Assembly: GCA_022072245.1 (NCBI GenBank)
Contig: JAJVIA010000002.1
Coordinates: 1-32,894, forward strand
From: Anaerolineae bacterium
GTDB taxonomy: Bacteria; Chloroflexota; Anaerolineae; UBA4142; SHND01
Direction of reading: 5' to 3'
Length of the DNA stretch: 32,894 nucleotides
In this document: piece by piece, positions 3,675 to 24,518 of the stretch
Numbering within the stretch: the first letter of the stretch is position 1
Layout of the letters: each line of letters begins with the position of its first letter
Made by a program: the position numbers and the translations under genes
The notes under the pieces: model-generated
Told to the model about the DNA's origin: nothing
Database searches by the model: none
The model's input: the letters and a program-made list of their open reading frames with translations, nothing else

Positions 3675-3689
3675 AAAAGGAGATTTGAT

Positions 3690-7016: not shown

Positions 7017-7043
7017 GCAGTCCGGGTGTGCAGCCCGGACTGC
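7017..7043 (+). other. Perfect 10-bp hairpin in the intergenic gap
   Basis: GCAGTCCGGG (7017-7026) and CCCGGACTGC (7034-7043) form a perfect stem with a 7-base loop. No T-run follows, so it is not a classical terminator. It lies 6 bases after the helicase stop and 23 bases before the next start. It could protect the 3' end of the upstream mRNA or regulate the downstream gene. Confidence 0.55.
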
Positions 7044-7066
7044 GCTATCCTGTAATGGAGGTTATG

Positions 7067-7495
7067 ATGGAAAAACAACCAAGATGCAAAAAATGTGGTC
7101 GGCGGTTGAAATCTCCCCTGAGTATTGCAATCGGCATGGGTCCCAAGTGTGCGGGAATTACGTCCGCCTCTGGGAGAAGTGTTCGTGTCCAGAGCAAACC
7201 AAGTTCTCGCGTGGCTTATTCTGATAAGTCGCTAATCCAGGTGCAAGCACCTCTTTTCACGGGTGAATTGCCAAAGAAGCGGCTTAGCAGGAGAGAGTTG
7301 TTCCGCAGACGCAGGGAGGAACGCCGACGATTGTTTGAGACCCGATTGCCCTTCCAATGTGGTTTGGTGTTGCCAGCGAGAAAGCCGCTGGTGTATACTC
7401 CGCTGGAAGATGGCTCATGGCAGGAAACCTATAGCGGAAGGGTAGTTTCTCACGAACGGTTACAACAATACCTAGTGAAGTATCGCTTCATATAA
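7067..7495 (+). CDS. Small Cys-motif protein, DUF6011-like
   Basis: This encodes 142 residues. I chose ATG 7067 because GGAGG at 7057-7061 gives normal spacing; ATG 7064 is also possible but too close. The N-terminus reads CKKCGRRLKSPLSIAIGMGP and is followed by a third Cys (Cys7, Cys10, Cys28). This pattern matches the DUF6011 family, which is presumed to bind metal; I recall this and have not searched it. The middle is strongly basic (KKRLSRRELFRRRREERRRL), suggesting nucleic-acid contact. It ends in a Tyr-rich segment. It is the last gene of the plus-strand operon and is followed by a terminator. Confidence 0.7.
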   Translation: MEKQPRCKKCGRRLKSPLSIAIGMGPKCAGITSASGRSVRVQSKPSSRVAYSDKSLIQVQAPLFTGELPKKRLSRRELFRRRREERRRLFETRLPFQCGLVLPARKPLVYTPLEDGSWQETYSGRVVSHERLQQYLVKYRFI

Positions 7496-7501
7496 ACAGC
7501 A

Positions 7502-7536
7502 AAGTCCCCTGATCAGTAAAAATCAAGGGACTTTTT
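7502..7536 (+). terminator. Terminator at the convergent junction
   Basis: AAGTCCCCTGAT (7502-7513) pairs with ATCAAGGGACTT (7522-7533) with one mismatch, and is followed by TTTTTGTTTT. It closes the plus-strand backbone operon. The same stem lies just beyond the stop of the minus-strand cysteine desulfurase gene (7578), so it may serve both directions, although the minus-side T-run is short. Confidence 0.75.
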
Positions 7537-7577: not shown

Positions 7578-8744
7578 TTACTGTATTTTTACTAAACTAC
7601 TCCAAGCATCTACTAGAGATTTAACAATGATATTTATTTCATCTTCACTGTTATATCTTCCGAGACTAATTCGAATTGTGGATGAAGCATCTTCCCTAGA
7701 CAAACCCAAGGCTGTTAGAACATGCGAAGGCTCAATTGCTCCTGATGTGCAAGCTGACCCAGTCCCAATCATGATATCTGGCGCATTGTAAATCAGTGCA
7801 TCTGCATCTAAATCTTGAAACGTGATACTAGTGGTGTTAGGTAGTCGCTCAACAAGAATACCATTTATTTTAGATAAAGGAATTTTAGAAGTTATTTGAG
7901 TTTCGATTTGGTCACGTATTCTTTGTACTCGAATAACCTCTTCATTTAATGTTGCCTTTGTCAATCTGCAAGCCTCACCTAGCCCAACTATACTGGGTAC
8001 ATTTGTGGTTCCGGAGCGTAAACCACTTTCTTGTCCTCCACCATATCCAATTGGTTCCAAGGGAATTGCACCTGTCCCGCCGCGAATATAAAGTACCCCA
8101 ACTCCCTTCGGTCCATAAAACTTGTGCGCGCTTAAAGAAAGCAAGTCTACTTCCCAATCATCAACACTTACAGGAATCTTGCCTGCTGCTTGTGCCGCAT
8201 CGGAGTGAAATAAAGCGCCATGCTGATGAGCAAGTTCAGCAAGTTCTTTGATTGGCTGTAAGGTGCCGATTTCATTATTTGCCCCCTGTATTGATACAAG
8301 TAATGTGTTTTCATCAATACTTTTGCTTGCTTCTTCTAGAATAACCTTGCCATTTTTGTCGACTGGAAGAAAAATAACATCAAAACCTTCTTCTTTTAGT
8401 CTTTTACAGGGCAAAAGAACAGCTTTATGTTCTATAACGCAAGTCACGATGCGCTTACGTTGCGCATTTTGGCGGAAGCGTGCTAATCCTAGTATTGCCA
8501 AATTGTTGCTTTCCGTTGCTCCACTCGTAAACACAATTTCATTTGATCTTGCACCAATCAAATCTGCGACCTGCTCGCGCGCAATATCTACTGCTTTTGC
8601 TGATTTCCGGCCTTGAATATGGAGCCCATTAGATGGGTTGCCGTAAGTTTCATTAAAATACGGCAACATCTTTTCGACAACGCGGGAATCGCAGGGTGTA
8701 GTCGCGTTGTAATCAAGGTAAATCGGTGAGACTTTAGTGGTCAT
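7578..8744 (-). CDS. Cysteine desulfurase (IscS/NifS/DndA family)
   Basis: This encodes 388 residues of a PLP enzyme that would take sulfur from cysteine as a persulfide and pass it to a partner. The visible signatures are YLDYNATTP at the N-terminus, TSGATESNN (73-81), the PLP lysine in SAHKFYGPKG (Lys208) and the catalytic Cys332 in GTGSACTSG. The length is normal for the family. ATG 8744 overlaps the BrxL stop in an ATGA, so it is translationally coupled and the last gene of the defence operon. In Dnd systems DndA supplies sulfur to DndC, and a DndC-like gene is in the same operon, so a DNA phosphorothioation role is inferred. A housekeeping Fe-S role is possible, but no IscU, IscR or HscA neighbours are present. 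Confidence 0.93.
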   Translation of the reverse strand: MTTKVSPIYLDYNATTPCDSRVVEKMLPYFNETYGNPSNGLHIQGRKSAKAVDIAREQVADLIGARSNEIVFTSGATESNNLAILGLARFRQNAQRKRIVTCVIEHKAVLLPCKRLKEEGFDVIFLPVDKNGKVILEEASKSIDENTLLVSIQGANNEIGTLQPIKELAELAHQHGALFHSDAAQAAGKIPVSVDDWEVDLLSLSAHKFYGPKGVGVLYIRGGTGAIPLEPIGYGGGQESGLRSGTTNVPSIVGLGEACRLTKATLNEEVIRVQRIRDQIETQITSKIPLSKINGILVERLPNTTSITFQDLDADALIYNAPDIMIGTGSACTSGAIEPSHVLTALGLSREDASSTIRISLGRYNSEDEINIIVKSLVDAWSSLVKIQ

Positions 8745-10177
8745 GGCGTTATTTCATATTGAATATCTTTTTCAAATTGACGATACTCTGCATCTAACAT
8801 ATATAGTTGATCCCAGATAAACTGTCTAAGCTGCTTGGCTGGGCGAACACAGTAATGTTCAAAATCTCCATCGGACATTACCCCATGCGGGAAAAGCAAT
8901 TTTGTCATCCCACTAGCAATAGCATGAACGGCATCTTCATTTCTTTTGAACTTTTTCCCGGTTAATTGAATCCGCCGCGCGCACATTTGGTCAATTTCGA
9001 GGTTGTCACGAAACGCCAAAAGTGCATCACCGAAAAAGTCCGTTTTCAATCCAACACTTTTAGCAAAGCTATCACCACTCAGTTTACGAATTTTCCAGCC
9101 TGGGATAATACCCTTTATTCTGTCAAGGAATGCCGTTTCCTGTAAAAACACGGGCAGTTCTGAAACTAAAGGTGATGCAACGGGTTGCTGGTGTGTGTCG
9201 AGAGTAATATTAGCCAGCATAACCAATCCACAATCGCTTGACGACTCGTGCAGACCACCACGTGTTAATCGTGCATTGGCAAGGAATCCTTTTAATCCAC
9301 CTACAATTTCCTCGGGGCGTTCAAACTTTAAAGTCTGTACTTCATCCAGGACAACCACTTTAAAGCGAGCAAGGAGTCCCCATTGCCCAGAAGCATTGTT
9401 AATAAACAAGACTGCTGGCGAAACATTCCCACCGCTTAACAGCCTCACACGAGGTGAAATATTTTCATACAGATAACTTTTGCCAGTTCCTTTAGGCGCA
9501 AGTTCAATTAAATGCATACTTTTCTGAACCAAAGGCAGTAACCTGCAAAGCAAATATATTTGCTCATCTTCTGTAAACACTAAGGGGTTGTATCCCATTG
9601 ACGTTATTAAGAGAGACATCCACTCTTTTAATGAAAATTCCTGTCTGGCTTTTTTGTACAAATCTAAATTAAAGACAGCCTGCATAGGTTTGAAACTAAC
9701 AACTTCTACCCCCTCAGGAGTATTTGTTAATTCAGTCACTCCCCACATTCCATAAGAGAGCAAATCTTGATATTTTTCTACGATACCATCGGCAATTAAG
9801 GCGTCGAATATTTGTAGTTGCATTAATTTTGCGACGCGATCTTGATTGTTACGCCTTAACTCAACCTCCACCTGCATTGACGTCAAGACTTTTACGGTTT
9901 CGCCATTAAACAATCGGTTTTTGATTGAATTCGCGTCTTCAGGTCCGGGCAAATAGCGATCTGTCCAGTCTTGGATTTTATTTATTTTTTCCTTTGTAAG
10001 TTCATCGCTTCCAGGAGATAAAGTATCAATTACCCATTCAGCCACGTAAGCAGGAATGCCACGTTTGTCTAACTTAGTTAATGGTAAACGACGTTTGTCT
10101 ATGGCGAGATCTCCAAAGATCTTAACCGCTTTCGCATTTAACTCTTGCGCAGAGTCTGTAATATGATCAGTTGTCAT
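8741..10177 (-). CDS. brxL: BREX protein BrxL, short form lacking the Lon protease domain
   Basis: This encodes 478 residues with an AAA+ core: Walker A LAPKGTGKSYLYE (Lys233), followed by LLSGGNVSPAVLF and Walker B VVVLDEVQ (Asp278, Glu279). About 220 residues precede the core, as in BrxL proteins (RYLPGPEDANSIKNRL). Classical BrxL is near 680 residues and carries a C-terminal Lon-like protease domain. Here the protein ends soon after the AAA+ lid and has no Ser/Lys protease section. The gene is not obviously broken: its stop overlaps the next start in an ATGA, and its own ATG overlaps the PglZ stop in the same way. In BREX, BrxL is a DNA-binding AAA+ ring needed for phage exclusion. Confidence 0.85.
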   Translation of the reverse strand: MTTDHITDSAQELNAKAVKIFGDLAIDKRRLPLTKLDKRGIPAYVAEWVIDTLSPGSDELTKEKINKIQDWTDRYLPGPEDANSIKNRLFNGETVKVLTSMQVEVELRRNNQDRVAKLMQLQIFDALIADGIVEKYQDLLSYGMWGVTELTNTPEGVEVVSFKPMQAVFNLDLYKKARQEFSLKEWMSLLITSMGYNPLVFTEDEQIYLLCRLLPLVQKSMHLIELAPKGTGKSYLYENISPRVRLLSGGNVSPAVLFINNASGQWGLLARFKVVVLDEVQTLKFERPEEIVGGLKGFLANARLTRGGLHESSSDCGLVMLANITLDTHQQPVASPLVSELPVFLQETAFLDRIKGIIPGWKIRKLSGDSFAKSVGLKTDFFGDALLAFRDNLEIDQMCARRIQLTGKKFKRNEDAVHAIASGMTKLLFPHGVMSDGDFEHYCVRPAKQLRQFIWDQLYMLDAEYRQFEKDIQYEITP

Positions 10178-12351
10178 AAATCAAGTCCTTCAAGCAAAGA
10201 TTTATCTCTGGTATATAGTTCTGTTACCTTCAAATGAGACAAAGAGGGGCGCTGCTCAAATTCATCTCCTGAAGGCAACGCCAACACAACATACGCAGTA
10301 CCAATTTTCACCTGTTCGCTAGACGGCCAAGATGAAATATCAATTTCAATTGTTGTCTCTCTTAAAGACGGAAGTAAATGCCTTTTATCAAGCCTTGTCA
10401 TTTTATTATCGCCAAAATCAATTTCACATTGGACAATATGCAAGTTGACCTGGCTTGAATTTATGGCCGTCAATATCAATTTTCCAGGTTGGTTGGCAGC
10501 TCCATCGCCACTTATAGCTAGTTCAACTTTGGGACTTTCCACATTTCTTGCAAAAACCATCCAGGGAACGATGACCTCTTCTGGAGATAGTCCGCCATGA
10601 GGGTATAGCTCTTGTTCGTGGCGCTTATCTTGAAAAGCACTATCGTCTAGTATAACTGCAACATCAATACCAAAAGTGTCCAAACCAAAGCGATGTTGCG
10701 ATAAGTATGCAACATTCTCATTGATAACATACCCAGATTTAGGAAAGTCCTCATTAACAGTCTTGCCCCAGGCGGCACGACCGTGAGCAAGCATGCCTTC
10801 AGGTATAGGAACGACTCTTTTCGATGTCCCTAAATATCTTCCGTGATCGGTTGAAATAAATAGTTTTACATCCATAGATAGTGGAATTTGCTCAATTACA
10901 TCTAAAATCTTTTTGGCTTGCGTTCTCAGTTGACCTTCTATTTCGGTTTTTAATGTATTGTTCTTATTTTTCTTGTGATAAGTATTATCTGGCTCCTGAA
11001 TACGCCAAATGATAAGATCACCTGGTTGGGCAAGTTTTAGGTTTTTTACTGGCGTCTCTTGCTCTGAAACGTCTTCTCCAAGAATCTTTATTTCCTTCAT
11101 CATTGAAGGCTGTACGCCTCGGAGAAGAGATCCTTTGGTAAATTCGGTTACTGTAGGTATTGGAGCAAAACACGGGCTGTTTTCTACAATGTCTAATCGA
11201 TGAGTCCCTTTAGTACCAAGCAAAGCGTTCATTAAGAATTTTGCATCCAAATAATGGAGACCATCTAACACGACTAATAGATTGATCGAATTTGGGTATT
11301 TTTCGCGCAAGTTTTGTGAATAAAAATAACTTATATAAGCTTTTGAATTTAAGGCTGTAGGGTAAAAATTCAGATACCATTCAGCAAATTGCCTGCCTAA
11401 AGATAGGGAGTGGGCATATGCGGTGTTGTTGCCAGTATTAAGACACCAATCTTTGTAGGGTAGATATTCTTCCATAAACCATTCAATTACGGACTCAGGC
11501 TGTTGAGGCATTGGCTTTGGCTCTGGTATCGGTCGTAGTTTGGCGATTCTTTCAACATCTTTTCCGGTTGCAAACCTGAAAATTTTGTTACATGCATCGG
11601 CAGTAACAAACTCAGGGTTCTTTTCAAAATAATCCAATGCAACTTTAGCCGCTTCTTGTTTGAGTTCTCTTTTGGTTGGGGCTTTGAAAAACTCAATAAA
11701 AAACTCTCCCCGTGTCTTTATCATGTTGCCAGCCCACGCCTCTTGCAACTTGGCAAGCCATTTATCGGGCACTTGAGCGGGGAATTCTCCGTATTTATCT
11801 AAAAAGGGAGTTATCTCTGCCCCAAACCATTTTTGAAGCAATAACATTGATGATTCAGGGGTATTGGCCTCATATAACTCGCTCAGTTCTGGTTGGTCTT
11901 TTTTCCACTCAAAAACCAAAGGAGAGAGTACAGGCTCAAATGCTTCATGGTACTCTATCGCATCTAGCCAAAGCAGCCAATCCGCAGCATGTGACTTAGT
12001 GGCCGACGAGTCCCATAAGTAAGTATGAAACAGAGATGACAATATCTCTTGTGGAGAATAATCAGCAATCTTTACTTTTGCCGCCTTCAATTTTTGGCTT
12101 ATATACTGCGCCTGTTCAATCGACAGATCGCTATAATGGCCCATCAAATCACCAACAATAGACGGTGCGCTGGTACAAGTAATATTTCTACCCCTGTAAA
12201 AAGATTCAGCCCACTCGCATAACGCATAGCCGCGAATCAGGAGAGCATCTCCTGACAATGCAGAGTTTAGAAAGTCAACCTCTGTTTCAATAATCCTGTA
12301 TCCTTTTACAGAGTCGGCAGTTTCGTCGCGATCTAGCAATATATTCGGCAT
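10174..12351 (-). CDS. pglZ: PglZ, alkaline-phosphatase-fold BREX core protein
   Basis: This encodes 725 residues. I chose ATG 12351, 7 bases after the BrxC stop, because it gives a natural N-terminus (MPNILLDRDE); a longer start at 12444 would lie inside brxC. The C-terminal half shows the PglZ metallo-phosphatase motifs: VVLDGLHYLD (Asp363), a Thr-rich nucleophile region (PTVTEFTKGS, about 399-408), STDHGRYLG (Asp502, His503) and YPHGGLSPEEVIVPW (from residue 583). PglZ is the signature protein of all BREX systems. Its neighbours BrxC and BrxL match the BREX order. The stop overlaps brxL in an ATGA. The enzymatic target in BREX is not settled. Confidence 0.93.
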   Translation of the reverse strand: MPNILLDRDETADSVKGYRIIETEVDFLNSALSGDALLIRGYALCEWAESFYRGRNITCTSAPSIVGDLMGHYSDLSIEQAQYISQKLKAAKVKIADYSPQEILSSLFHTYLWDSSATKSHAADWLLWLDAIEYHEAFEPVLSPLVFEWKKDQPELSELYEANTPESSMLLLQKWFGAEITPFLDKYGEFPAQVPDKWLAKLQEAWAGNMIKTRGEFFIEFFKAPTKRELKQEAAKVALDYFEKNPEFVTADACNKIFRFATGKDVERIAKLRPIPEPKPMPQQPESVIEWFMEEYLPYKDWCLNTGNNTAYAHSLSLGRQFAEWYLNFYPTALNSKAYISYFYSQNLREKYPNSINLLVVLDGLHYLDAKFLMNALLGTKGTHRLDIVENSPCFAPIPTVTEFTKGSLLRGVQPSMMKEIKILGEDVSEQETPVKNLKLAQPGDLIIWRIQEPDNTYHKKNKNNTLKTEIEGQLRTQAKKILDVIEQIPLSMDVKLFISTDHGRYLGTSKRVVPIPEGMLAHGRAAWGKTVNEDFPKSGYVINENVAYLSQHRFGLDTFGIDVAVILDDSAFQDKRHEQELYPHGGLSPEEVIVPWMVFARNVESPKVELAISGDGAANQPGKLILTAINSSQVNLHIVQCEIDFGDNKMTRLDKRHLLPSLRETTIEIDISSWPSSEQVKIGTAYVVLALPSGDEFEQRPSLSHLKVTELYTRDKSLLEGLDL

Positions 12352-12358
12352 TTTCTTA

Positions 12359-15300
12359 TTAATCGACCTTTTGTAAACGTTTAATGCACTCTTCTCGTTT
12401 TTTTCGGTCTTTGATGGATTTGAATAGGTCTTCAATATGACCAATCACATCCTGAGTTTCTTTTTCTTCGATTTTAGAAGAAACCTCTTTTATTTTGGAA
12501 GCTATGCTCTTATTTGTAAAAGATATGGTTTCTAGCTTTCTACGCAGGTCTGCGGCTTTTGACGCCTTAATTCCGCGCTCCACTTCTTTGATTATTTTCT
12601 CTACTTTCTCATATTCTTCTTGAATCTTCTCGTCTATCTTATTTTTAACATCTTGGAAATAAGACTTGTGTTTTTTGCTGACTTTGCTTAAATAATTTTT
12701 TTCGATCTTACCCAATCTTTCACGCGCTTCAGACTCATCCTCTGGATTCCTGATAGGTAACAGAGTTACAGATTTTAAATCTTCAAAGTAGGACTGTAAT
12801 ACTTGAATATACTTTTTTGCTTCACGAAAATCTTTTTCGTGGTCTGAACCTGAATATCTGCCTTCTCTGATTATCATTGACTCGTAAAAGTCTCTCAGAT
12901 CTTCAGGCGAAATTTCTTTCGCAGTTTTCTCTACATTCTCTGCAAAAGTTTCCAGTCCCAAAATTTCGGTGGAAATCTCGTCTAATTTCTTTTTCTTTAC
13001 TTTTTCAAAATTACTTGACGAGCCATTAAGTTGCGCAATCGCATCTTGATATTGATATAAAACAACTAAATCCGCCTTTGACGTCATTGCATTAAGTTGT
13101 TCGACAGCCGACGATTCTGCTGCCTGGTTTCTAAGTACCTCAACTCGTCTCTCTAAATCTTCTTCTGCTTGGGCGAATAAGGCAACAATTTTCTTGTGCC
13201 CTCTACGCTCAAAGTCGCTTTTGTAATCCCGTATTTCGGAGCGTGCTATGCCAGCGTCTTCGATGTGTCTTAAATTGACACTCTCTTTACATGTTTCTTT
13301 TGCAGCTTCTTCTATTTTAGCGTCTAAGTCTTTCTGAATTTCGCTTACACCCGGTTGAGTAGGTGTAACTATATTAGCAGATACCAATCGTTTGAGATCG
13401 TTCTCAAACCCCAGTAGTTTTTTGAGACTATCTTCCCTTGAAAAGGCAGCGCGTAATTTCTTAACATCAGCGTCGTACAGTTTGGCACTCTCTAATGCCG
13501 TTGTTAAATCCTGCAATGCCTGTGTAACGGCTTCTTTTTCATCCTCAGACAAGACGCCCTGATTAAGAACCTCTTTTAGTGAAGTTACTTGGGAGTCCGC
13601 GTCTTCTTGACTTCGAGGAATAGAACGCTGGATCTCTTCAACTAACTTGCGTATCTCTTTGACGGCTTTTTCTACGTCGCGCCTAGTAATTGTAAAGTTT
13701 TGTGTGCATATCTTTCCCAAAAACTCTTGAGGATATTCGGACTCGAGCAATTTCTCAAGATAGTCTATGCCTACAATTTTATTGTTGGCAGAAAAACTGA
13801 GTTTGGTTTTGTTTTTCCCAATCCAAGCGGTAAAGAGCAGCGTTGCTGTGTTGTAATCAAAGCCAAACGGAGGCGCAAAAAGATTGGGAAGAAAAGTTTT
13901 AACAGGAACTTCCTTATCATCTATCTTGACTTCATTTTCTAAATATTCCCATGCGCGCAGCAAGGAAGGCGCATCTGGCTCTTGTATGTAATAACGGTTT
14001 GTTAAAATGCGCCAATTTTGCATTAGTTGCTGCTTACAAACTCGATCGCGGGAAAAATGAGACATTCCATCTAACGTGGAACCTATTTTGTTATGGAGTA
14101 AGTTTCTTGCGACTACCTTAACGCTGTCAGGAACCGTTTTAGCGCCTTTTTTCGGATTTGCAGCAAACTCATCAAAGAATTTTGGCGGGTGATATGGATA
14201 TGCCAAGTCGTAAAGCTTCCGTAATACACCATCTATTGTTATTGTAGCCAAGACGGTTAAGTTGGATTTGTATTTTTGATGAATAACCAACTCTGTTGAT
14301 TTTCTTGGGATACTTCTGTAATTTACTTCATCACCGAACAGGTTTCCCAGCGACTTTATAAGAGTTTTCTTGGTGCGTTCTAGGTCACTGTCAAATCCAA
14401 CCTGAGTGACTTTCTTTATTAGATCTCGATCCTTTTTTAAATCCTCAAGAACTTTGTAACGTAGATAATAATTTGACAACAGGGTATTTACTGACTTTGG
14501 AAGCACCATGATAACTGGAGGAGGTGTTTCTTCAGAAAACGTATCGTGCAGAATTTTAGGCGCAGTTTTATTGAAATATTCGATATCAGTCTCATCTAAT
14601 GCAAGCAACCAGCAAACTAAACCGCGATTGCCGTCTTTGAATCCTTGATATGTGAGTGAGTATGCTTGCAACGACTGCTTCAAAAAGTCACTGGTTAGCG
14701 TTTCCCGTGTGATAACAACTGATTTCGCTGCCCAATCATCTGGACTGCCCCAGTCTACAGGAACTGGGATTTTGGTAGTACCAGTAAACAGGTCTTCCAA
14801 ATTGTCATTAAGACTGTATACCGTGTCAGGATTAAATTTCTTGTTTGCTAATTCATTCTTGATTCGATCTTCCAGTGCCTGTGGATCCACAGAGACGGGC
14901 CAGAAAGAATTAATGCCAAGGCTCTCGTCGTATTTGGTAATGCTCTTCTTTGATAATTCTTTCAATGTTTGCAAAGCTGTTTTTTCGTCCAAGCCTGCCA
15001 TTTCAGCCAGAATTTCAACCTGCCTGCCCCCTACAACAAGGTGATCTGCTTCTTGCAATAAAAGCGCTTTTAGAAGGGCGTGATATATATAGGTTGGCGT
15101 ACCTGCAAAAGTTTGTTCAACATTTCTTGTTGCATTTTCATACGAGGCAAATAATTGCTTGGTGGCAATTCTGCCCTGGAAATAATCCACCAGTTCAATC
15201 GGGTAAATTCTGTTTAGTTTTCCATTATCGTCAAAAATAGGTTCGTTTTGTTTTTGCTCGTAACGATCTCGGACGAATCGCAAAATAGTGCGCGGATCGT

Positions 15301-16576: not shown

Positions 16577-16594
16577 TTTCCCTCCTGTGGGAAG

Positions 16595-17053
16595 CTAAGA
16601 TAGGCGTCCATCTTTTTGCCATTTTTCAAGCATATCATCGCTTGGTAAAAGATGGCTGGCGGTTTCGGGAATTGTGATTAAAAAGGCATGTTGCCTGTTT
16701 GGAAAACGATTGTATAAGTCTTGCCAAACCTGATTACGATCCTGTTCTTTTCTTAATCCTGCAAGAAGCAGGTCGAAGTTGCAAATTAAAACGCAGTCGC
16801 GAATGTCGCTGCGATTTGCAGTTTCATCTAAAAACTCGTACAGGCGCGTAACGGATAGTCGCGCATATTCAGTTTTTGCAGGCAATTTTGAGAGAAATTC
16901 TTTGCTGGCGTCAAGCATCCCAAGATCAAGGCGAAAGGCGATATCCGCCTCATGCCCAATTTGGGACAAAGGCATGCGCCAAATTCCGACATTAGTACGG
17001 AAATTACCGCGTTTGAGATTTTCAACCAATTCAACAGGCTCAGTTTGACCCAT
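16595..17053 (-). CDS. BrxF/BrxB-like small BREX protein without a P-loop
   Basis: This encodes 152 residues. I chose ATG 17053, which overlaps the end of the upstream DUF4007-like gene by 14 bases; the longer frame to 17134 lies inside that gene. The sequence keeps a Walker-B-like hydrophobic strand (RDCVLICNFDLLLAGLRKEQ) and an AAA-like ending (HAFLITIPETASHLLP). No GxxxxGK[ST] motif is present, so it should not hydrolyse ATP. Small proteins of this shape occur directly before BrxC in some BREX operons (BrxF in type 3). It is probably a structural partner of the large ATPase. The family call rests on context and weak sequence resemblance. Confidence 0.6.
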   Translation of the reverse strand: MGQTEPVELVENLKRGNFRTNVGIWRMPLSQIGHEADIAFRLDLGMLDASKEFLSKLPAKTEYARLSVTRLYEFLDETANRSDIRDCVLICNFDLLLAGLRKEQDRNQVWQDLYNRFPNRQHAFLITIPETASHLLPSDDMLEKWQKDGRLS

Positions 17054-17888
17054 ATATCTTTTCCAGGATGGATTCCTGATCTTGGCGCAACAACATGACT
17101 TGATATGGTGGCGCGGATCGATGAACATCCACAAATTGATTTTCTTGCATGATTCGCAGGACTTCGTCCAAGTCAGATTTAGCCATTAAGAAAAGTTGCG
17201 GAAAACCACTATTCATTAACACATCGAGGCTGACCCCAATTCTATCGGGGTACTGTGCCTTCCAAAAATCAAGCAAGGCATATCCTACTACCCAGGCAGA
17301 GGGAGTAACTGGGGATTGTACGCGAAATCTTCCACTGTCGGTTGCTTCCAGAATTTTTAATTTTCCTAATCCTTCAGAATTAGTGTACGCATTTAAGAGT
17401 TTTGTGGCTGTGCTTTGAATTTTTCTTGCTGATATAACTTTATTTTCAGATTGCCAAATAAAATCGCCAATAAAATCAGAAACATCCTCTTTTGAGAACA
17501 AGTTGCTCGGAAAAAAGAATTTTATTACAACTTGATTCCAAAATGCAGGACCTGGACCGTGAGGTGCGCTCAAGTGATAATGCATTGCCCATTGTGTATT
17601 AGCAAGATCGAATTGCTCATCATTTCGAAATGCAAAGGTTCCAAAATTAGTAAGTTTATATTTTGGGGTAATCAGTCCACAGCCTCTTGCGTAATAAGGC
17701 ATCGCTTTTACGTAATTCGTTCCCAAGGAAGTCGCTTCTGAAAAAAACTCTCTTCGGGTTATCTGGCTTAAGGATTGAAGATTTGGATTATCCAAAACTG
17801 CTTTGACAATTTTCGACAATGATTGGCGGGAAAGTGATATGTCTTCATGAAAAATGGTCGGAATTCGAGTTTTTTGTGTGGTCGGCAT
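17040..17888 (-). CDS. DUF4007-like protein, second copy
   Basis: This encodes 282 residues; ATG 17888 has AAGG upstream. Features shared with the DUF4007 family are FHEDISLSRQSLSKIVKAVL at the N-terminus, then GCGLITPKYKLTNFGTFAF, and a TQWAMHYHLS segment. The upstream protein at 22,687-23,622 has the same layout (GHEKFVFRYGWLKKG, then SLWLLHWQLT). A winged-helix-like region before the LT-FG motif suggests DNA binding. I recall DUF4007 genes next to DndC-like genes in defence islands. This copy precedes the BrxF/BrxC pair, so it may be the adaptor for that ATPase. The function is unknown. Confidence 0.7.
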   Translation of the reverse strand: MPTTQKTRIPTIFHEDISLSRQSLSKIVKAVLDNPNLQSLSQITRREFFSEATSLGTNYVKAMPYYARGCGLITPKYKLTNFGTFAFRNDEQFDLANTQWAMHYHLSAPHGPGPAFWNQVVIKFFFPSNLFSKEDVSDFIGDFIWQSENKVISARKIQSTATKLLNAYTNSEGLGKLKILEATDSGRFRVQSPVTPSAWVVGYALLDFWKAQYPDRIGVSLDVLMNSGFPQLFLMAKSDLDEVLRIMQENQFVDVHRSAPPYQVMLLRQDQESILEKIYGSN

Positions 17889-17897
17889 TTTGACCTT

Positions 17898-18401
17898 CTA
17901 TTCAATAGGCGCAGAATTTTCAAAATTAGAAAGAGGATTTAATATCGCTATTATTAATTCTCGAAGACTCTGCCTCATCTCTTTATTTGAAAATAATTGA
18001 TAGGTAGAACTATCCAAATATGCATAATCAATATTTTCTTCAATCCTTTTGGTGCCTCCCCCCGATGTCGACAAGTTAGCATATTGAACTTCGCGCCCAC
18101 TCTTAACTTTATGTTTCCAAAAACTTGATGTCCTCAAATGAAAAAATGGTGGAGCGGGTTGATTCCAATCACCTTCAATACGAATCAAGTTAAATATATT
18201 TGAAAAACTTTTAGCGAGATCATCATTGAAGTAGATTTTATTCTCAATAATGATTTTTTTGTCAAATAAATCAAGAACTGCAAGCATCATCACCAATTTG
18301 TGCGGCTTTTTATGTCCATGAGTAACATCTCTTTGCATTTTTTGGATTTCTTTTTTAAAGTGATCCAATTTTTCCTGTAGACTCGCAGTGCCGTCGTTCA
18401 T
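17898..18401 (-). CDS. Sulfur-binding-domain (SBD)-like protein without HNH nuclease
   Basis: This encodes 167 residues with AGGAAA before ATG 18401. Two stretches resemble the phosphorothioate-binding domain of ScoMcrA-type and related HNH proteins: KPHKLVMMLAVLDL (32-45) and PPFFHLRTSSFWKHK (84-98). They have the usual spacing and a loop with basic residues between them and the C-terminus. Those nucleases carry a C-terminal HNH (Cys pair plus HH...N...H), which is absent here; the protein ends shortly after a helix. It lies between the DndC-like gene and the second DUF4007-like gene, 9 bases from each. Inferred role: recognise phosphorothioate-marked DNA and guide the modification or exclusion machinery. 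Confidence 0.6.
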   Translation of the reverse strand: MNDGTASLQEKLDHFKKEIQKMQRDVTHGHKKPHKLVMMLAVLDLFDKKIIIENKIYFNDDLAKSFSNIFNLIRIEGDWNQPAPPFFHLRTSSFWKHKVKSGREVQYANLSTSGGGTKRIEENIDYAYLDSSTYQLFSNKEMRQSLRELIIAILNPLSNFENSAPIE

Positions 18402-18410
18402 ATGTATTTC

Positions 18411-19229
18411 CTACAAATGGCATACTAAACAAGACTGATCATCACCTTCTACTTCACCTAATCCAAAAACATCACTTAAGGATTGATTTTTATTTTGGCT
18501 TTTTCTTCGCTCTTGAAAACGATCGTGATCTATCTTTATTTTTGCCACTCTTTCTGCACCTTTTAATTCTTCCAAACTTTCATTAGCGCCCCATGTATAA
18601 ACTTCGCCTGTGATTTCATCCTTTTTCTCAAACTCACCTGCCTTTTTATACAAATCAGGATGGTTTTCAAGCAACCCAACCCATTCAACCTTCTGTTGGA
18701 AAAAGCAAAAATAACATCCAGATCTGGAGCGCCAATCGTAATACTTAGGTAAACCCAAGCCACTCTCTTCTAGTAAACGGAAGATATCTTCTTTTGTTAA
18801 TCCGGCCTCTATAAATGGATATACAGCAGTAATGTTCGGTTTTGTTGATATATAACCTTTCCTATGCGCTTCGTCCGCTCGAATTCCTACGTAACTTACA
18901 CATGGATCATCGCCGACAAATCTTTCAAAAGGTTCAATTTTCAATTTCCTAGTACACCACCTTGTTCGTGCATCAGGCAAAACACCACGATATATTTGTA
19001 AGTAATGCCTAAAAGGTCTATCAGGGTTTAAGCGATTAATCGGTTTTCCCAAGAAAACTTCAAGGCGATCTAGGTATTCGTATGTTTCTGGAAGTTCTTC
19101 CCCGGTATCGCAAAAAACATACTCAACATTTGGAATTTTATCGCGCATAAAGATTGCCAAGGCAGTACTATCTTTCCCCCCTGACAAGGAAAGGATGTGG
19201 CGAATAGGTTTTTGCATTTCTGTGGTCAT
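18411..19229 (-). CDS. DndC/BrxP-like PAPS-reductase-family sulfurtransferase
   Basis: This encodes 272 residues. I chose ATG 19229 because GAGAGG lies 6 bases upstream; the GTG at 19250 has none. PP-loop motif SLSGGKDSTALAIF (14-27) binds ATP, and further family motifs are VFCDTGEELPETYEYL, RWCTRKLKIEPF (91-101) and GIRADEAHRKGY. The Cys residues in two CxxC pairs (Cys172/Cys175 in SGCYFCFF; Cys267/Cys270 at the extreme C-terminus, SCLVCHL) could bind an Fe-S cluster, as in DndC. DndC activates the DNA backbone for sulfur insertion. As I recall, a PAPS-reductase-like gene (brxP) replaces pglX in BREX type 4. Its operon partners (desulfurase, SBD-like, PglZ) support a phosphorothioation role over sulfate assimilation. 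Confidence 0.88.
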   Translation of the reverse strand: MTTEMQKPIRHILSLSGGKDSTALAIFMRDKIPNVEYVFCDTGEELPETYEYLDRLEVFLGKPINRLNPDRPFRHYLQIYRGVLPDARTRWCTRKLKIEPFERFVGDDPCVSYVGIRADEAHRKGYISTKPNITAVYPFIEAGLTKEDIFRLLEESGLGLPKYYDWRSRSGCYFCFFQQKVEWVGLLENHPDLYKKAGEFEKKDEITGEVYTWGANESLEELKGAERVAKIKIDHDRFQERRKSQNKNQSLSDVFGLGEVEGDDQSCLVCHL

Positions 19230-19275
19230 ATAAATCCTCTCAAATACCACTAAAAATCATGGGTTAATTTGTCAA

Positions 19276-19281
19276 ATTATA
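19276..19281 (-). promoter_or_regulatory. Candidate internal -10 element upstream of the DndC-like gene
   Basis: On the minus strand the 75-base gap holds a perfect TATAAT (19281-19276), immediately followed by TTGACA (19275-19270). No good -35 lies 16-18 bases upstream of the TATAAT, and no good -10 lies 16-18 bases after the TTGACA. An internal promoter for the downstream eight genes is possible but not proven. This is the longest gap in the operon. Confidence 0.3.
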
Positions 19282-19304
19282 CGCTGAAAATACAAGGAAA
19301 TTGC

Positions 19305-22300
19305 CTACAATTTTGTATCTTGGTCATCCACTATTTCTTGCAGCAGCATCTGTAAAGCAACCCTCAAAACCTGTGGATCGTCAGATTTAGCCTTTTTTAG
19401 TTGATGACGAAGGTTTTCTGCAATAACACGGCTTTGTTTTCGCTGTTCATGAGACAAGCTAGCTTCTGGAGCATAACCCTTTAGCGCTGCTCGGAACGTC
19501 TTAGCGAAAACTGGTACTTTCTCAGCAAAAGTGTCTGTGTCTATGTCTGTCCAGTTTTTATACGGGCGATTGGCGATATAAGCAAGGGTGCTCTCAAGGG
19601 CAGCGCGCCCATCCTGAGTTTCAACCGCACGCTTAAGAAGTGGCAACAAATTGGAGTTTGTTACATGAGGAGCAAGTTCGCCCGCCAAAGTGCGGAACAG
19701 ATTCCAATTGTCTTCGCCGGCTCCCAATCCACAAGCATCTAACCACTTATCTCTGCCCCACTCTAAAAGCCTTGGGGTCTCGTTCGATAATTCAGTTAGT
19801 GCATTGTTCAAACGCGTAAAGAATTGATCCACCTTATCTTTATCTAACCGCTTGTCTTCAAAAGGCTCTAACTCAAGCGCTAAGGGCAAATCTGAAAATA
19901 GTAATTTTTCAGGTGACTTGGCTTGATCTACAGCAGTACGAATACCCTGTGCATGCTTGGAAATACGATTTGTTTTCCACGTATGTTCAGGTAAAGATTT
20001 CAGACCACGGATCAACATCCTGACAACAGGCATAACCGCTGCGTCGGTCTGATATCCACGTGCAAACCGCTCAATGATCGCCTGACGCGTTCCTGCAATC
20101 CTGCATCCTGCTACTGCAAAGAGTTCAGGTCTGCGCAAAAGAACTTCCCAGTCGGCAATAGATGGCTCAGGAAGCAACGATCCTTCACGATACAACGTGG
20201 TTTCATCCTGATGAATGATCACAAAAAGGCAGAGCAAAATTGGGAGAACCCCATCTGTTATTCCATATGGGGGTGCGGTTAAAAGCTGGAACAACTCTGC
20301 AACACTACGCGGCTCAAAGGTGTCACTAAACACAAAACGTGAGATTTCATTCCAAGCAGGCGCAATCGATAATACGTCGTTGTTCTTTGGAGTGACGAAT
20401 TCCCAATGTCCTTTTTTGACCTCTTTATGCAGCCCACTTGCCTTCAAGAGGCTCTCGTAAATACTTCGTTCTGGGGGGAAGCCTTCGATTCCTAGATTTA
20501 ATTCAACAGAATGCGTCATCATCTTTTCAATCAGGTTGCGCCTTGCAGCTGCTCCCTGACTGGAGAGTGCGCGCCGATTAATGATTTCATTCCAGATGAC
20601 GGGGCTCTGATCATATAGAGCATCACAGACTTTTGAAAGCAAATGTGAAAGCCCTTCATTCTTTTTAACAGAAAGGCTTTTTCCTTTATACAACCATTTA
20701 CATAAAGTTGCGTCGGTCAGTCTATGAGAACTTAGCGCGTTTTCAATCTCATTTTGAATAAGCGTTTCAACCGCACTAAAGCGGGTGCGCAGCTCTCGAC
20801 GCGCAACCGGATCACCATGCAGCTCACCAGTATTGTCTTGAACCCAGTGTAATGCACGTATCTCAGACAGCAGTTCGGTGAGCCGTCCCGATTTTTCCAA
20901 GATCCCTATCACTAAATTAGTACGGCTTGCAATTTCGGCTGAACTAGCCCATTGGACGAATTGCTCAGCCTCTACAAAATTAGCAGACAAGCATACAACC
21001 ACGATCCCGCTTGCTCCTGCCGCTGGTGATAAATTTAATTGCTTGTGTGTAAGCGCATCTACATAACGAACCTCGAAATAGCGGGTCACGCCAAAGGTGT
21101 AACTATGACGGCGTGCGACTATAGGTCGTGGTGGTAGATATTTTTGCACTGCTTCAGCAATACTAAAAGTTCCGCCTAACTGCTGGCGAGCCTCTTGTAA
21201 ACGTTCTTCAATATCCACATCACTTCCCTGCCATATTGAATACGTTTTGTTAAAGCGACGATAAACAACCAGTGAACGGGATTGCAAGCTCTTGAGTGCT
21301 TTCTGAATTTCACCTTTTGTCACATCTTGAGATTGCAAAGCGTCCAAGATGCTATCTTCACTTGCATAAAGGTGGCTTACTTCGGCGAGCCAGTTTAATA
21401 AACCAATAGTTTTCAAGACATCGGTTTCAATATGGGTAAGTTCAGGATTGATTGTGTTACTCAACCTATCCATTGTCTCGGTTATAGCGCGTGCCCTGCC
21501 TGTTGCATATAACCTACCCTGAAAATTTGCAGAGAGATAATCGAATAAGTCAGGTAAACGGACAAAAGATGATATTGAGTTTTGTGAAATGAAATCTTGA
21601 AAACCAGCAGGTTCATGCGATGCCAGATACGCAAAAATAGAACGCTCATTTTGAGCCAAACGCTTAAACAAATAAGGCAATGCAATCAGGGATGTTGGAT
21701 GAAAAGGAAATGATTGAATCGCAAGGTTGGTAAGTTCCTCGGCTTTCAACATAGGAGGACACCAACCATTACCGGCTATGTTTCCCGCAATTTCCTTCAA
21801 GGAAGATAGAGTTCCCTTAATGCTTTTTTCGTCCAAATATTCGATTGCCTTTGCCAGCAATCGTAGTTGTTGGGTGGGAGGCTCCTGAAAAGCAATGTCC
21901 TCAAATCTGCCTTGAACTTTAGCCCATTCTCGCTGAGTTTTGCTATCTAAATGAATTGCATAACGCTCAAACGCTTGGTGCAAAATACCAATGAACACAA
22001 ACGGTGCTTCTCCGCTGCGGTTTGCAAATTCAGCCAGTTCCTGCAACAAATAAATATCTGTTACTTCAGGATGGGAAGCTGCATATTCCAATGGCTTTCC
22101 CATTTCATCAAAGACCATTAATGCGCCCAAATAGCCTTGTTCGTGCAAAACCTCAGTCAATTTCTTGAGCCATTGAGTAATAACACGGCTTTCAATTGAA
22201 GCATTCCAATGATCTAACTCATGCAATAAATGCTTGATGTTTGTATTACTATGAAATTTGGCAAGGGACTGGCGCAAACCATGCTTAATACAATCCTGCA

Positions 22301-22700
22301 AAGATGCCCGAAACCCTGTGACTGGAATAGGCAGTAACCCTAGCGTGCTCCCATGATTTAAGACATGTTTGACTTGATTTGCCAAAATTTCATCAACAGA
22401 TTTCAACTGTCTTAGAACATTTTTATGGCCAGGTTGCGCAGTTCCCATAAGGTTCATAAGGAATAAACCATAATAAGATTTTCCAGAGCCATAAGGTCCA
22501 GTCAATGTCCAGGATCTTGCAGGGGAATTTCCCTCAAAACGAACCAGCATTCTTTCCAGACTTGACCGGGATTGACCTGTGAATACATATTCATTCAAAA
22601 GAGAATTATTTTGAAGATCTGCTTCTACATTTATGGAACGAACACCACTTTGACGAATGCGAATGACCTTCGCTAAAGTATCTTGATTATTTTTGCTCAT
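19305..22700 (-). CDS. Large P-loop ATPase of the defence operon (BrxC/DUF499-like)
   Basis: This encodes 1,131 residues. Walker A is LTGPYGSGKSYYGLF (Lys74) and Walker B is LGALMVFDEMGK (Asp198, Glu199). The spacing and the following segment (EAPFVFIGILHQAFERYA) are like those of the BrxC protein downstream. The rest is alpha-rich, with winged-helix-like stretches around 420-500. The C-terminal 60 residues are charged and helical. It overlaps the upstream DUF4007 gene by 14 bases, so the two are probably made together. It is not a helicase: no DEAD or SNF2 motifs are seen. Inferred role: a second nucleotide-driven scaffold or motor serving the modification arm. It could equally be called PglY-like. 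Confidence 0.8.
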   Translation of the reverse strand: MSKNNQDTLAKVIRIRQSGVRSINVEADLQNNSLLNEYVFTGQSRSSLERMLVRFEGNSPARSWTLTGPYGSGKSYYGLFLMNLMGTAQPGHKNVLRQLKSVDEILANQVKHVLNHGSTLGLLPIPVTGFRASLQDCIKHGLRQSLAKFHSNTNIKHLLHELDHWNASIESRVITQWLKKLTEVLHEQGYLGALMVFDEMGKPLEYAASHPEVTDIYLLQELAEFANRSGEAPFVFIGILHQAFERYAIHLDSKTQREWAKVQGRFEDIAFQEPPTQQLRLLAKAIEYLDEKSIKGTLSSLKEIAGNIAGNGWCPPMLKAEELTNLAIQSFPFHPTSLIALPYLFKRLAQNERSIFAYLASHEPAGFQDFISQNSISSFVRLPDLFDYLSANFQGRLYATGRARAITETMDRLSNTINPELTHIETDVLKTIGLLNWLAEVSHLYASEDSILDALQSQDVTKGEIQKALKSLQSRSLVVYRRFNKTYSIWQGSDVDIEERLQEARQQLGGTFSIAEAVQKYLPPRPIVARRHSYTFGVTRYFEVRYVDALTHKQLNLSPAAGASGIVVVCLSANFVEAEQFVQWASSAEIASRTNLVIGILEKSGRLTELLSEIRALHWVQDNTGELHGDPVARRELRTRFSAVETLIQNEIENALSSHRLTDATLCKWLYKGKSLSVKKNEGLSHLLSKVCDALYDQSPVIWNEIINRRALSSQGAAARRNLIEKMMTHSVELNLGIEGFPPERSIYESLLKASGLHKEVKKGHWEFVTPKNNDVLSIAPAWNEISRFVFSDTFEPRSVAELFQLLTAPPYGITDGVLPILLCLFVIIHQDETTLYREGSLLPEPSIADWEVLLRRPELFAVAGCRIAGTRQAIIERFARGYQTDAAVMPVVRMLIRGLKSLPEHTWKTNRISKHAQGIRTAVDQAKSPEKLLFSDLPLALELEPFEDKRLDKDKVDQFFTRLNNALTELSNETPRLLEWGRDKWLDACGLGAGEDNWNLFRTLAGELAPHVTNSNLLPLLKRAVETQDGRAALESTLAYIANRPYKNWTDIDTDTFAEKVPVFAKTFRAALKGYAPEASLSHEQRKQSRVIAENLRHQLKKAKSDDPQVLRVALQMLLQEIVDDQDTKL

Positions 22701-23622
22701 AGTGACCCCTTAGCATTTCCAGTGCATAAGCATCAAAATCATCTGCCACAGAACTTTGAAGATAGACTTGTCTTAATCCAGCCGTTTCTTGCAGAGTAAT
22801 CTTCCCGTTTGTTATTTTATGCATTTGTTCTAAATATTCAACAACGCTATTTTCGTCAAGTTTAAATACTTGTCCAGGGCTTCCATGACGATATACACAT
22901 TCGTCAACAGATACAGTCCTTCTCGAATTAATAACCGAAGGTAAATACTTTAACAAGGTGTAACCAAAGACACCTACAGGTAAAGATGGCTTGGGTCCGA
23001 TATTAAAGCGATAGACATTGTCGTCTACTACAAAACGCAGGATGTCAAGTTCTGCTAAAGGGCAATCTAGGCTTTCTTCTGAAATGGAACCTGGTCTATT
23101 ACGAACAGAAGGAATGTACGTTCGTAAACAGCAGTCAACCTCCCGTTCGATACTTCCATCTGTGGTTTTGACGCCGGCTTGATCAATATGTTTTTTTAAG
23201 AAAAATTGAATTTGTTTTTTGTCAAACTCAGCTTCAAGGTATGAAGAAAAAATTAAATTCCAAATGTAACCTCGAACGATGTTGTTAGTAAGCTGCCAAT
23301 GCAAAAGCCATAAAGACCCAATATCCTCAAAATATGGATCCCAACTGCTCCTTGTTCCGATAAGTTTCCTAGCCAGTTCGGTAGCTTTTAGTGGCTTTGC
23401 AAGAGAAACCCCTTTGGTCTCTTCGGCCATTCCAGTTGCCAAACACCAATGGCGGATGGAACGAACCATATTCTTGCCAACCCCAAGAGTTGCCAAGGAT
23501 TCTTCGTCAGTGAAAACCAGTGGGTTATCTTTGATAGCATCTATTCCTTTTTTTAACCACCCATACCGAAAAACAAACTTTTCATGCCCTCCAAACATGG
23601 GTTTGATATTGCTTGTTCCCAC
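22687..23622 (-). CDS. DUF4007 family protein, first gene of the defence operon
   Basis: This encodes 311 residues. I chose GTG 23622 because AAGGAG lies exactly 6 bases upstream; ATG 23643 has no ribosome-binding site and its first codons contain that very site. Family features are MFGGHEKFVFRYGWLKKGID at the N-terminus, ATLGVGKNMVRSIRHWC, an ELARKLIGT segment and SLWLLHWQLT. It carries a probable winged-helix region. DUF4007 genes accompany DndC-type sulfur-modification genes in other defence islands (recalled). It overlaps the ATPase gene by 14 bases. No confident promoter is seen upstream; the structured 320-base spacer lies there. Confidence 0.85.
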   Translation of the reverse strand: MGTSNIKPMFGGHEKFVFRYGWLKKGIDAIKDNPLVFTDEESLATLGVGKNMVRSIRHWCLATGMAEETKGVSLAKPLKATELARKLIGTRSSWDPYFEDIGSLWLLHWQLTNNIVRGYIWNLIFSSYLEAEFDKKQIQFFLKKHIDQAGVKTTDGSIEREVDCCLRTYIPSVRNRPGSISEESLDCPLAELDILRFVVDDNVYRFNIGPKPSLPVGVFGYTLLKYLPSVINSRRTVSVDECVYRHGSPGQVFKLDENSVVEYLEQMHKITNGKITLQETAGLRQVYLQSSVADDFDAYALEMLRGHYEQK

Positions 23623-23643
23623 AATTTTCTCCTTGAAAATCAT

Positions 23644-24471: not shown

Positions 24472-24518
24472 GATTTATCCTCAGATCAAGATGTAAATTC
24501 ATATTTACTGGGTTACCC

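Follow-up and report, generated by a model that had tools for sequence, protein, structure and literature searches.

BREX type 4, a form of BREX based on phosphorothioate (PT) modification, is already known, and two published reports describe it as a brxPCZL system with SspB-, SspC- and SspD-like components, PglZ, BrxL and, in about half of the taxa, a cysteine desulfurase (PMC12839542, PMC11931770). In one of these reports, the fusion of a PAPS reductase with DUF4007 in BrxP is frequent but not universal (PMC12839542). Other PT writers are combined with different effectors: SspABCD occurs with SspE or SspFGH (PMC8092258), SspE being activated by PT (PMC11662687), and DndCDE occurs with DndFGH, DndI or PbeABCD, in the last of which a PLD-helicase is accompanied by an AAA/SMC-like protein plus two small proteins (PMC11662687, PMC6459918). 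BREX type 1 follows the order brxA-brxB-brxC-pglX-pglZ-brxL.

The window considered here is the whole analyzed stretch of 32,894 nucleotides from an Anaerolineae bacterium (GCA_022072245.1, contig JAJVIA010000002.1). Ten genes, all on the minus strand from 23643 to 7578, form one tightly packed operon with two modules, the SspABCD writer and a second module in BREX order, with a sulfur-binding-domain (SBD) protein between them; sspA lies beyond brxL, and the writer genes therefore flank the BREX cassette on both sides. Judging from sequence, we consider it probable (roughly 77%) that the operon encodes a two-module PT-based anti-phage system, consisting of a PT writer and a methyltransferase-less BREX cassette. 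The locus is best called a variant with an SspABCD writer and a writer-interchangeable BREX effector, apart from type 4.

Gene content of the operon

The features, in order of transcription, are as follows:

22687..23643, minus strand: SspB (first DUF4007 protein), DNA-binding subunit of the writer, assigned by homology; 14-nt overlap with sspC
19305..22700, minus strand: SspC, ATPase of the writer (PADLOC SspC, 1067.5 bits)
18411..19250, minus strand: SspD, sulfurtransferase of the PAPS reductase family (PADLOC SspD, 384.5 bits)
17898..18401, minus strand: standalone SBD protein, predicted phosphorothioate reader without a nuclease domain (profile and residues)
17040..17888, minus strand: DUF4007b, second DUF4007 protein, BrxA-like DNA-binding subunit (Pfam and position)
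16595..17053, minus strand: small 152-aa protein, BrxB/BrxF-like by position; 14-nt overlap with DUF4007b
12359..16576, minus strand: ATPase2, 1405 aa, BrxC-like AAA+/ORC-Cdc6-type ATPase, paralogue of SspC (fold and profile)
10174..12351, minus strand: PglZ (725 aa, start ATG at 12351), predicted alkaline-phosphatase-type metal-dependent nuclease/phosphatase
8741..10177, minus strand: BrxL, 478 aa, AAA+ ATPase without a C-terminal Lon protease domain (Pfam and NCBIfam)
7578..8744, minus strand: SspA/DndA-type cysteine desulfurase, the sulfur donor, encoded at the end of the operon (PADLOC)
7501..7534, minus strand: terminator-like hairpin 3' of the last gene, with a 14-pair stem, the longest of the scan

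The ten-gene operon reported in a preliminary description of this DNA was confirmed, with 14-nt overlaps at the SspB/SspC and DUF4007b/small protein junctions and 4-nt ATGA overlaps at PglZ/BrxL and BrxL/SspA. The remaining genes are separated by 54 nt (SspC-SspD), 9 nt (SspD-SBD and SBD-DUF4007b), 18 nt (small protein-ATPase2) and 7 nt (ATPase2-PglZ). Profiles also bore out the earlier assignments of PglZ, BrxL, the cysteine desulfurase, the SBD-like protein and the two DUF4007-type proteins, and the stated lack of PglX, since no methyltransferase was found among the ten proteins using Pfam, PADLOC and NCBIfam.

The same description had held that SspABCD homologues were absent and that the modification machinery would be unlike known systems; both statements were wrong, as SspA, SspB, SspC and SspD are encoded together as a complete set (PADLOC 498, 285, 1068 and 385 bits, respectively). 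The first DUF4007 protein scored 275 bits against Pfam DUF4007 and matched the solved SspB structure 6juf with an E-value of 1.3e-35, while the Walker A motif (G68..GKS75) and D198-E199 of SspC are conserved at 95% or more (n=46 sequences). The gene labelled DndC-like does encode a PAPS-reductase-family protein, but its identity is SspD, with 17.3 bits to the DndC profile (NCBIfam cut-off 290) and 40 bits to BrxP (PADLOC); its SGGKDS motif (S23-S28) and C99, C179, C182, C274 and C277 are conserved, and the true start may be an internal ATG at about 19229. The cysteine desulfurase, which also scored 502 bits against PADLOC DndA, retains the PLP lysine K208 and the catalytic-loop C332. Conservation across relatives reaches at least 95% for each of C332/K208, S23-S28 and G68-S75. 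DndD and DndE had no match among the operon proteins in NCBIfam, nor did SspE (DUF262/DUF1524), SspF, SspG or SspH when all ten proteins were compared with Pfam, PADLOC and NCBIfam.

The SBD protein matched the solved SBD 8h0l (profile E-value of 2.6e-37), and its family-conserved residues H34, K35 and P85 correspond to the sulfur-cavity residues H116, R117 (here K) and P165 of ScoMcrA. In four loci (L054, L063, L071 and L077) the domain is fused to DUF4007b, and it is missing from 47 of the 58 surveyed loci, being thus optional in relatives. Because most relatives do without it, the SBD cannot be the sole device for self-recognition.

Within the cassette, DUF4007b (Pfam DUF4007, 61 bits, cut-off 27) occupies the brxA position and heads the cassette in the surveyed loci. 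The small protein has a degenerate P-loop/AAA+-type fold without Walker A (AlphaFold pLDDT 88), and its best Foldseek matches were P-loop/AAA+ folds, all weak (lowest E-value 2e-3), with no known BrxB chain recognizable among the best 50. BrxB itself has been described as an AAA+-like fold without Walker residues that adjoins brxC and binds PglZ (PMC12205998). In another locus (L092) the same slot is taken by a P-loop protein of the BREX-3 BrxF type (E-value 3.5e-7), although the small protein gave no match when its profile was compared with the L092 and L093 proteins of the BrxF type. The BrxB/BrxF-like label, which comes from position and fold, is therefore held loosely, given the negative profile comparison and the weak fold matches.

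ATPase2 was not assigned to a family by Pfam, NCBIfam or PADLOC and yielded nothing beyond coiled-coil noise when compared with the PDB by sequence. It is nevertheless related to the SspC family (hhalign 99.9%, E-value 5e-34), and for the N-terminal 600 aa of its AlphaFold model the top seven Foldseek matches were Acinetobacter BrxC, the best with an E-value of 8e-11. The single BrxC-like gene of the preliminary description corresponds to SspC, and this second BrxC/SspC-type ATPase had been overlooked. PglZ (PADLOC PglZ, 299 bits) conserves D363, T402, D455, H459, D502, H503 and H585 (n=45 sequences), and BrxL carries the Pfam domains BrxL_N and BrxL_ATPase and scored 490 bits against TIGR02688 of NCBIfam (cut-off 329). 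Both features of the BREX superfamily, a BrxC-type ATPase (by fold) and PglZ, are therefore present. Two profiles proved poor markers for such surveys: PF08665 (PglZ) fails to detect the PglZ of the window, and PDLC02510 (BrxP) matches ordinary PAPS reductases in most genomes.

Relationship to BREX type 4 and other described systems

The locus shares with BREX type 1 BrxA-, BrxB- and BrxC-like proteins, PglZ and BrxL in the same order, and ATPase2 folds like BrxC, whereas a PT writer stands in the place of the PglX methyltransferase. Its writer set is identical to that of the SspABCD-SspE and SspABCD-SspFGH systems, but its effector is a BREX cassette. With the DndCDE systems it has in common the combination of a PT writer with swappable effector modules, and copies of its cassette occur inside cyanobacterial dnd loci; the effectors DndFGH, DndI and PbeABCD, however, are unrelated to the cassette. 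PbeABCD was considered as a homologue and set apart by its published description, in which neither PglZ nor BrxL appears.

The closest comparison is BREX type 4, and the locus could be a plain brxPCZL system with a cysteine desulfurase whose BrxP is split into two genes. Both rely on sulfur modification in place of PglX and include PglZ, BrxL, DUF4007 and PAPS-reductase proteins, the PT basis of type 4 being described in the reports cited above, and BREX-labelled PADLOC models fit SspC, PglZ and BrxL of the window, so that earlier annotation has probably grouped loci of this kind under BREX. The type 4 link made in the preliminary description was therefore a good lead, but it does not extend to a fused BrxP, a type 4 PglZ or a single ATPase. 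In L104, a canonical type 4 locus of the same phylum, BrxP is a fused protein of 816 aa (850 bits), there is one ATPase (in two ORFs), and PglZ has 618 bits to the type 4 model, whereas the PglZ of the window reached 17.9 bits against that model (NF033445, cut-off 140). The PADLOC models matched by BrxC, PglZ and BrxL also differ between the two loci. Moreover, the window encodes SspB and SspD as separate genes, two DUF4007 proteins, a separate BrxB-like gene, an SBD reader and two ATPases, SspC and the separate family of ATPase2, instead of a single SspC-related BrxC. Since the BrxC of type 4 corresponds to SspC, ATPase2 is the additional element. We regard assignment to plain type 4 as unlikely.

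Conservation of the operon and association of the cassette with dnd loci

The gene-neighborhood survey proposed in the preliminary description found this gene order in at least 28 of the loci covered, which argues that the arrangement is more than chance. The order SspB-SspC-SspD-(SBD)-DUF4007b-(small protein)-ATPase2-PglZ was found in 28 of the 58 ATPase2 loci and PglZ-BrxL-SspA likewise in 28 of them, spanning Chloroflexota, Cyanobacteriota, Armatimonadota, Bacteroidota and other phyla. One of the relatives is a plasmid-borne copy in Thermomicrobium roseum (L019, 8410-23973). Between the window-type and L049-type alleles, the SspD/SBD/DUF4007b segment is exchanged. Distances of writer and effector proteins were correlated over 25 operons (r 0.74-0.92, Mantel p 0.001), as is also expected from shared descent of neighboring genes.

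In ten cyanobacterial loci (L083, L088 and L180-L187, with L088 seen from the dndD/dndC side only) the five-gene cassette lies within a dnd locus, reversed and between dndE and dndD; one of these ten copies is degraded to fragments. DndC, DndD and DndE of L083 scored above curated cut-offs, and in one family 9 of the 33 cassette genomes have DndC no more than about 10 kb away, against 0.13 expected. All cyanobacterial cassette genomes without an Ssp writer carry DndC; genome-level co-occurrence was discarded as evidence, being uninformative when 188 of the family's 193 genomes have DndC, and physical linkage was kept. When writers were placed on the tree, Dnd accounted for two changes, and because few switches are needed, the association may go back to one or two events, as opposed to free exchange.

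Since the cassette sits with DndCDE in cyanobacteria, it is not tied to SspABCD and probably needs PT itself, whichever writer makes it. Its location in a different sulfur-DNA locus suggests a portable module that would block phages by working with sulfur marks. A more specific proposal, to which we give even odds, is that DUF4007b, the BrxB-like protein, ATPase2, PglZ and BrxL form an autonomous, writer-independent module that reads PT as such and pairs with the unrelated SspABCD or DndCDE. Such loci would make up a BREX type of their own, with self-marking and restriction assigned to two separate BrxC-family ATPases. The marking and restricting jobs of BrxC would then be divided between one ATPase for the writer and another for the cassette, the sulfur reader lying in between, which bears on how BREX blocks phages and on the share of BrxC in each task. 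One cassette beside two unrelated PT writers also allows asking whether restriction depends on the mark and whether the writer is exchangeable. The cassette would join SspE, SspFGH, DndFGH, DndI and PbeABCD as an effector partner of Ssp and Dnd writers, and a function would be suggested for cyanobacterial BREX-like cassettes without an adjacent Ssp writer.

Proposed mechanism and alternative readings

The pairing of a PT writer with BREX machinery, as put forward in the preliminary description, is strongly supported by homology, the conserved operon and the physical exchange of the writer observed in cyanobacteria. By inference, the writer produces PT, the cassette restricts phage, and on self DNA the cassette is licensed or inhibited by PT. 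SspA would draw sulfur from cysteine and SspD would pass it on, while SspB and the ATPase SspC would choose and open the sites, leaving PT marks on host DNA. DUF4007b, the BrxB-like scaffold, ATPase2, PglZ and BrxL would assemble on DNA and stop phage DNA without these marks, and the SBD, free or fused to DUF4007b, may read PT and aid self-recognition by the cassette.

The logic may be inverted, with the SBD steering the cassette onto PT-modified incoming DNA in a type IV-like manner, or with PT activating the effector as it does SspE. This reading appears improbable, since the writer is encoded alongside, leaving the host itself open to PT-directed attack, and the SBD, often missing from relatives, has no nuclease domain; PT may nevertheless activate the effector in the manner of SspE.

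There is still less reason to favor two independent systems that happen to be neighbors in a defense island, the first an Ssp writer whose effector is unlinked and the second an orphan BREX-like cassette. Several cyanobacteria do carry the cassette without adjacent sspBCD, and in one locus (L069) the writer is on the strand opposite to the cassette, but the nested order, the overlapping genes, the cross-phylum conservation, the SBD-DUF4007b fusion and the presence of the cassette within dnd loci where sspBCD is missing all argue against independence.

It is very improbable that the SspD-like protein, despite its membership in the broad PAPS reductase family, serves sulfur assimilation or another thio-modification outside any PT system, since it does not group with assimilatory PAPS reductases (29.6 bits to the phosphoadenylyl-sulfate reductase profile, cut-off 154, against 385 bits to SspD), SspB and SspC accompany it in the operons surveyed, and the other partner of the cassette, DndCDE, is likewise a PT writer.

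Outside the operon and on the opposite strand, the window also encodes a DUF6094 methyltransferase-helicase (3645-7010), which was rejected as the missing PglX on account of this location; among the surveyed loci, its gene adjoins the operon in the two nearest relatives only.

Gene content and organization of the operon

On the minus strand, the ten genes span 23643 to 7578; no gap between them exceeds 54 nt, four pairs overlap (by 14, 14, 4, and 4 nt), and a terminator-like hairpin at 7534-7501 closes the operon. The starts assigned to PglZ (ATG 12351) and to the small protein (ATG 17053) are corrections of those given by mechanical ORF calling. A 4-Mb metagenome assembly contains the window as one of its contigs; the closest relatives of the window in the named collection are assemblies of Anaerolineales (Chloroflexota).

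Features of the operon and its surroundings (bit scores from PADLOC models)
22687-23643, minus: SspB (Ssp model, 285 bits; solved SspB 6juf, E 1.3e-35)
19305-22700, minus: SspC (Ssp model, 1068 bits)
18411-19250, minus: SspD (Ssp model, 385 bits)
between SspD and DUF4007b, minus: SBD, sulfur-binding-domain protein, 167 aa (family profile against solved 8h0l, E 2.6e-37)
17040-17888, minus: DUF4007b, second, divergent DUF4007 protein, after the SBD gene
16595-17053, minus: small protein, 152 aa, predicted P-loop-type fold, no Walker motif
12359-16576, minus: ATPase2, 1405 aa (SspC-family profile alignment; BrxC fold matches)
10174-12351, minus: PglZ, kept residues consistent with an alkaline-phosphatase-type active site
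8741-10177, minus: BrxL, last gene of the cassette
7578-8744, minus: SspA (Ssp model, 498 bits)
3645-7010, plus: large DUF6094 methyltransferase and helicase protein, adjoining the operon
within 23965-27879, minus: candidate-defence gene PDC-M48A, directly upstream of the operon (199 bits)
24519-26813, minus: E2-E1-JAB ubiquitin-like conjugation fusion, upstream
26770-27879, minus: probable metallo-beta-lactamase-fold protein, upstream

The preliminary description, which joined BREX and phosphorothioation enzymes in one ten-gene operon, holds for the operon itself, but the absence of SspABCD claimed there is wrong, since all four proteins match PADLOC Ssp profiles and SspB also matches the solved structure. 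The gene called DndC-like is SspD, which scores only 17.3 bits in a profile search against DndC (cut-off 290) and is also far from assimilatory PAPS reductase (29.6 bits, cut-off 154). At least 95% of relatives keep the residues on which activity should depend: in SspD the SGGKDS motif and five cysteines, in SspA a loop cysteine and the PLP lysine, and in SspC the Walker motifs. Insertion of sulfur into DNA by the SspABCD set is established for these families (PMC12707154).

The cassette starts with DUF4007b, DUF4007 being reported as BrxA-like (PMC12839542), followed by the 152-aa protein, tentatively BrxB-like, with a predicted P-loop-type fold lacking a Walker motif such as is described for BrxB (PMC12205998); in Dictyobacter, its slot holds an intact P-loop protein scoring as BREX-3 BrxF. 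ATPase2 had no matches in Pfam, NCBIfam, or PADLOC, but its family profile aligned with SspC over 786 columns (99.9% probability), and an AlphaFold model covering its N-terminal 600 residues (pLDDT 87) gave Acinetobacter BREX BrxC as the best seven PDB matches (best E 8e-11), followed by Cdc6/Orc1. In gene order, the module would thus correspond to brxA-brxB-brxC-pglZ-brxL, as in BREX but without pglX. The residues kept in PglZ (D363, T402, D455, H459, D502, H503, and H585) are consistent with a predicted metal-dependent active site of the alkaline-phosphatase type.

The SBD protein, a candidate phosphorothioate (PT) reader, has no nuclease domain. Its H34, K35, and P85 are counterparts of H116, R117 (a lysine in most homologues), and P165 in the sulfur cavity of ScoMcrA (PMC6224610), a pairing taken from the 8h0l alignment and the published motif order. 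The gene is optional, being absent from 47 of 58 loci, and in four loci (L054, L063, L071, and L077) SBD is fused to the DUF4007b N-terminus, a fusion that connects the PT reader with the cassette. A Uma2-family endonuclease gene (L020 13103-13708) occupies the SBD slot in Pseudanabaena.

Conservation of the cassette and exchange of its writer

One pass of an ATPase2-family scan over 85,000 species genomes yielded 55 loci, and the plasmid collection added copies from Thermomicrobium roseum and Pseudanabaena galeata. SspB-SspC-SspD-(SBD)-DUF4007b-(small)-ATPase2-PglZ occurs in 28 of the 58 tabulated loci, many others being truncated at a contig end or at the limit of the fetched flank, and the PglZ-BrxL-SspA string likewise in 28/58. 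Gene order is intact in Pseudanabaena although ATPase2 identity to that of the window drops to about 20%. Writer and cassette distances are correlated across 25 complete operons (r 0.74 to 0.92, Mantel p 0.001), as would be expected if both were inherited jointly. Five loci from Ktedonobacter-type and other Chloroflexota (L107, L108, L092, L093, and L105) carry a third ATPase form of 1300-1700 aa, scoring between ATPase2 and SspC and likewise part of DUF4007-ATPase-PglZ-BrxL cassettes; several of these have sspBCD close by.

No sspBCD lies near the cassette of Fischerella muscicola (L083), whose neighbours are dndE with a PT-associated methyltransferase gene at one end and dndD with dndC at the other, all four exceeding NCBI cut-offs. 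The same nesting, with the cassette reversed, was found in eight further cyanobacterial loci (L180-L187), the methyltransferase side of L183 missing within its contig; in another locus, L088, the dndD/dndC side is seen. In L187, the cassette is reduced to fragments (228-aa ATPase2 and 184-aa DUF4007b pieces, 12242-13530) flanked by dndD and dndE, both intact; loss of the cassette is thus under way there, with the dnd genes retained. Mere genomic presence of DndC is uninformative because 188 of 193 genomes of the cyanobacterial family carry it, but DndC lies within about 10 kb of the cassette in 9 of 33 cassette genomes, where random placement expects 0.13. Dnd-linked copies sit among Ssp-linked cyanobacterial copies in the ATPase2 tree, where the Dnd label takes two changes, possibly one; the linkage therefore reflects one or a few events inherited afterwards, and the genomes should not be counted as independent trials. 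The putative PT-associated methyltransferase, a TIGR04096 profile match in L020 and L083 and recognized by similarity elsewhere, accompanies both Ssp-linked and Dnd-linked cassettes (L020, L068, L079, L082, L083, L094, L180-L182, and L184-L187).

Relation to known systems and proposed mechanism

BREX type 4 is PT-based and holds SspB-, SspC-, and SspD-like parts, PglZ, and BrxL (PMC12839542, PMC11931770), so the general idea is not new. PADLOC also holds BREX-labelled models fitting SspC, PglZ, and BrxL of the window, and parts of such loci have therefore already been counted as BREX. However, a canonical type 4 locus of the same phylum (L104) has a fused BrxP, lacking in the window, and one ATPase (split in two ORFs) instead of SspC and ATPase2; different PADLOC models are matched for BrxC, PglZ, and BrxL, and the type 4 PglZ model scores 618 bits there against 17.9 in the window. 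In the papers examined, we found no description of a second ATPase, a separate BrxB-like gene, or SBD as components of PT-based BREX, nor of cassette insertion into dnd loci. The preliminary interpretation, PT marking of host DNA with BREX-mediated phage exclusion, is partly supported and can be sharpened: the locus is best described as a variant of PT-based BREX with a writer-interchangeable cassette.

In the best-supported model, SspABCD would mark host DNA, as its families indicate, and DUF4007b, with or without SBD, would guide an ATPase2-PglZ-BrxL assembly along DNA; we infer that PT on self DNA would prevent or end attack and that unmarked phage DNA would be blocked. Alternatively, PT could activate the cassette in an SspE-like manner. 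Judged by their descriptions, the known PT effectors SspE, SspFGH, DndFGH, DndI, and PbeABCD are unrelated to the cassette.

Mosaic structure and genomic surroundings

SspB, SspC, ATPase2, PglZ, and BrxL of the window are 92-98% identical to those of L049, one of the two nearest related loci, whereas SspD is just 71% identical. DUF4007b is 12-48% identical over its first 100 residues and 92-100% over its C-terminal 75, and L049 lacks the SBD gene. Positions 17610-18638 (SspD 3' end, SBD gene, and DUF4007b 5' end) are not alignable with L049, between flanks of 87-92% identical DNA; part of SspD, SBD, and the DUF4007b N-terminus look exchanged as a single block, possibly a specificity or reader swap, in this one pair. 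The genes at 23965-27879 look like separate, variable defence cargo because no homologues were found in the L049 and L050 loci. The DUF6094 protein and its small neighbour (7028-7495) are conserved beside the operon in both relatives, and L050 also keeps the M23 peptidase gene (29145-29846), which suggests a mobile-element backbone common to these loci and surrounding the defence cargo.
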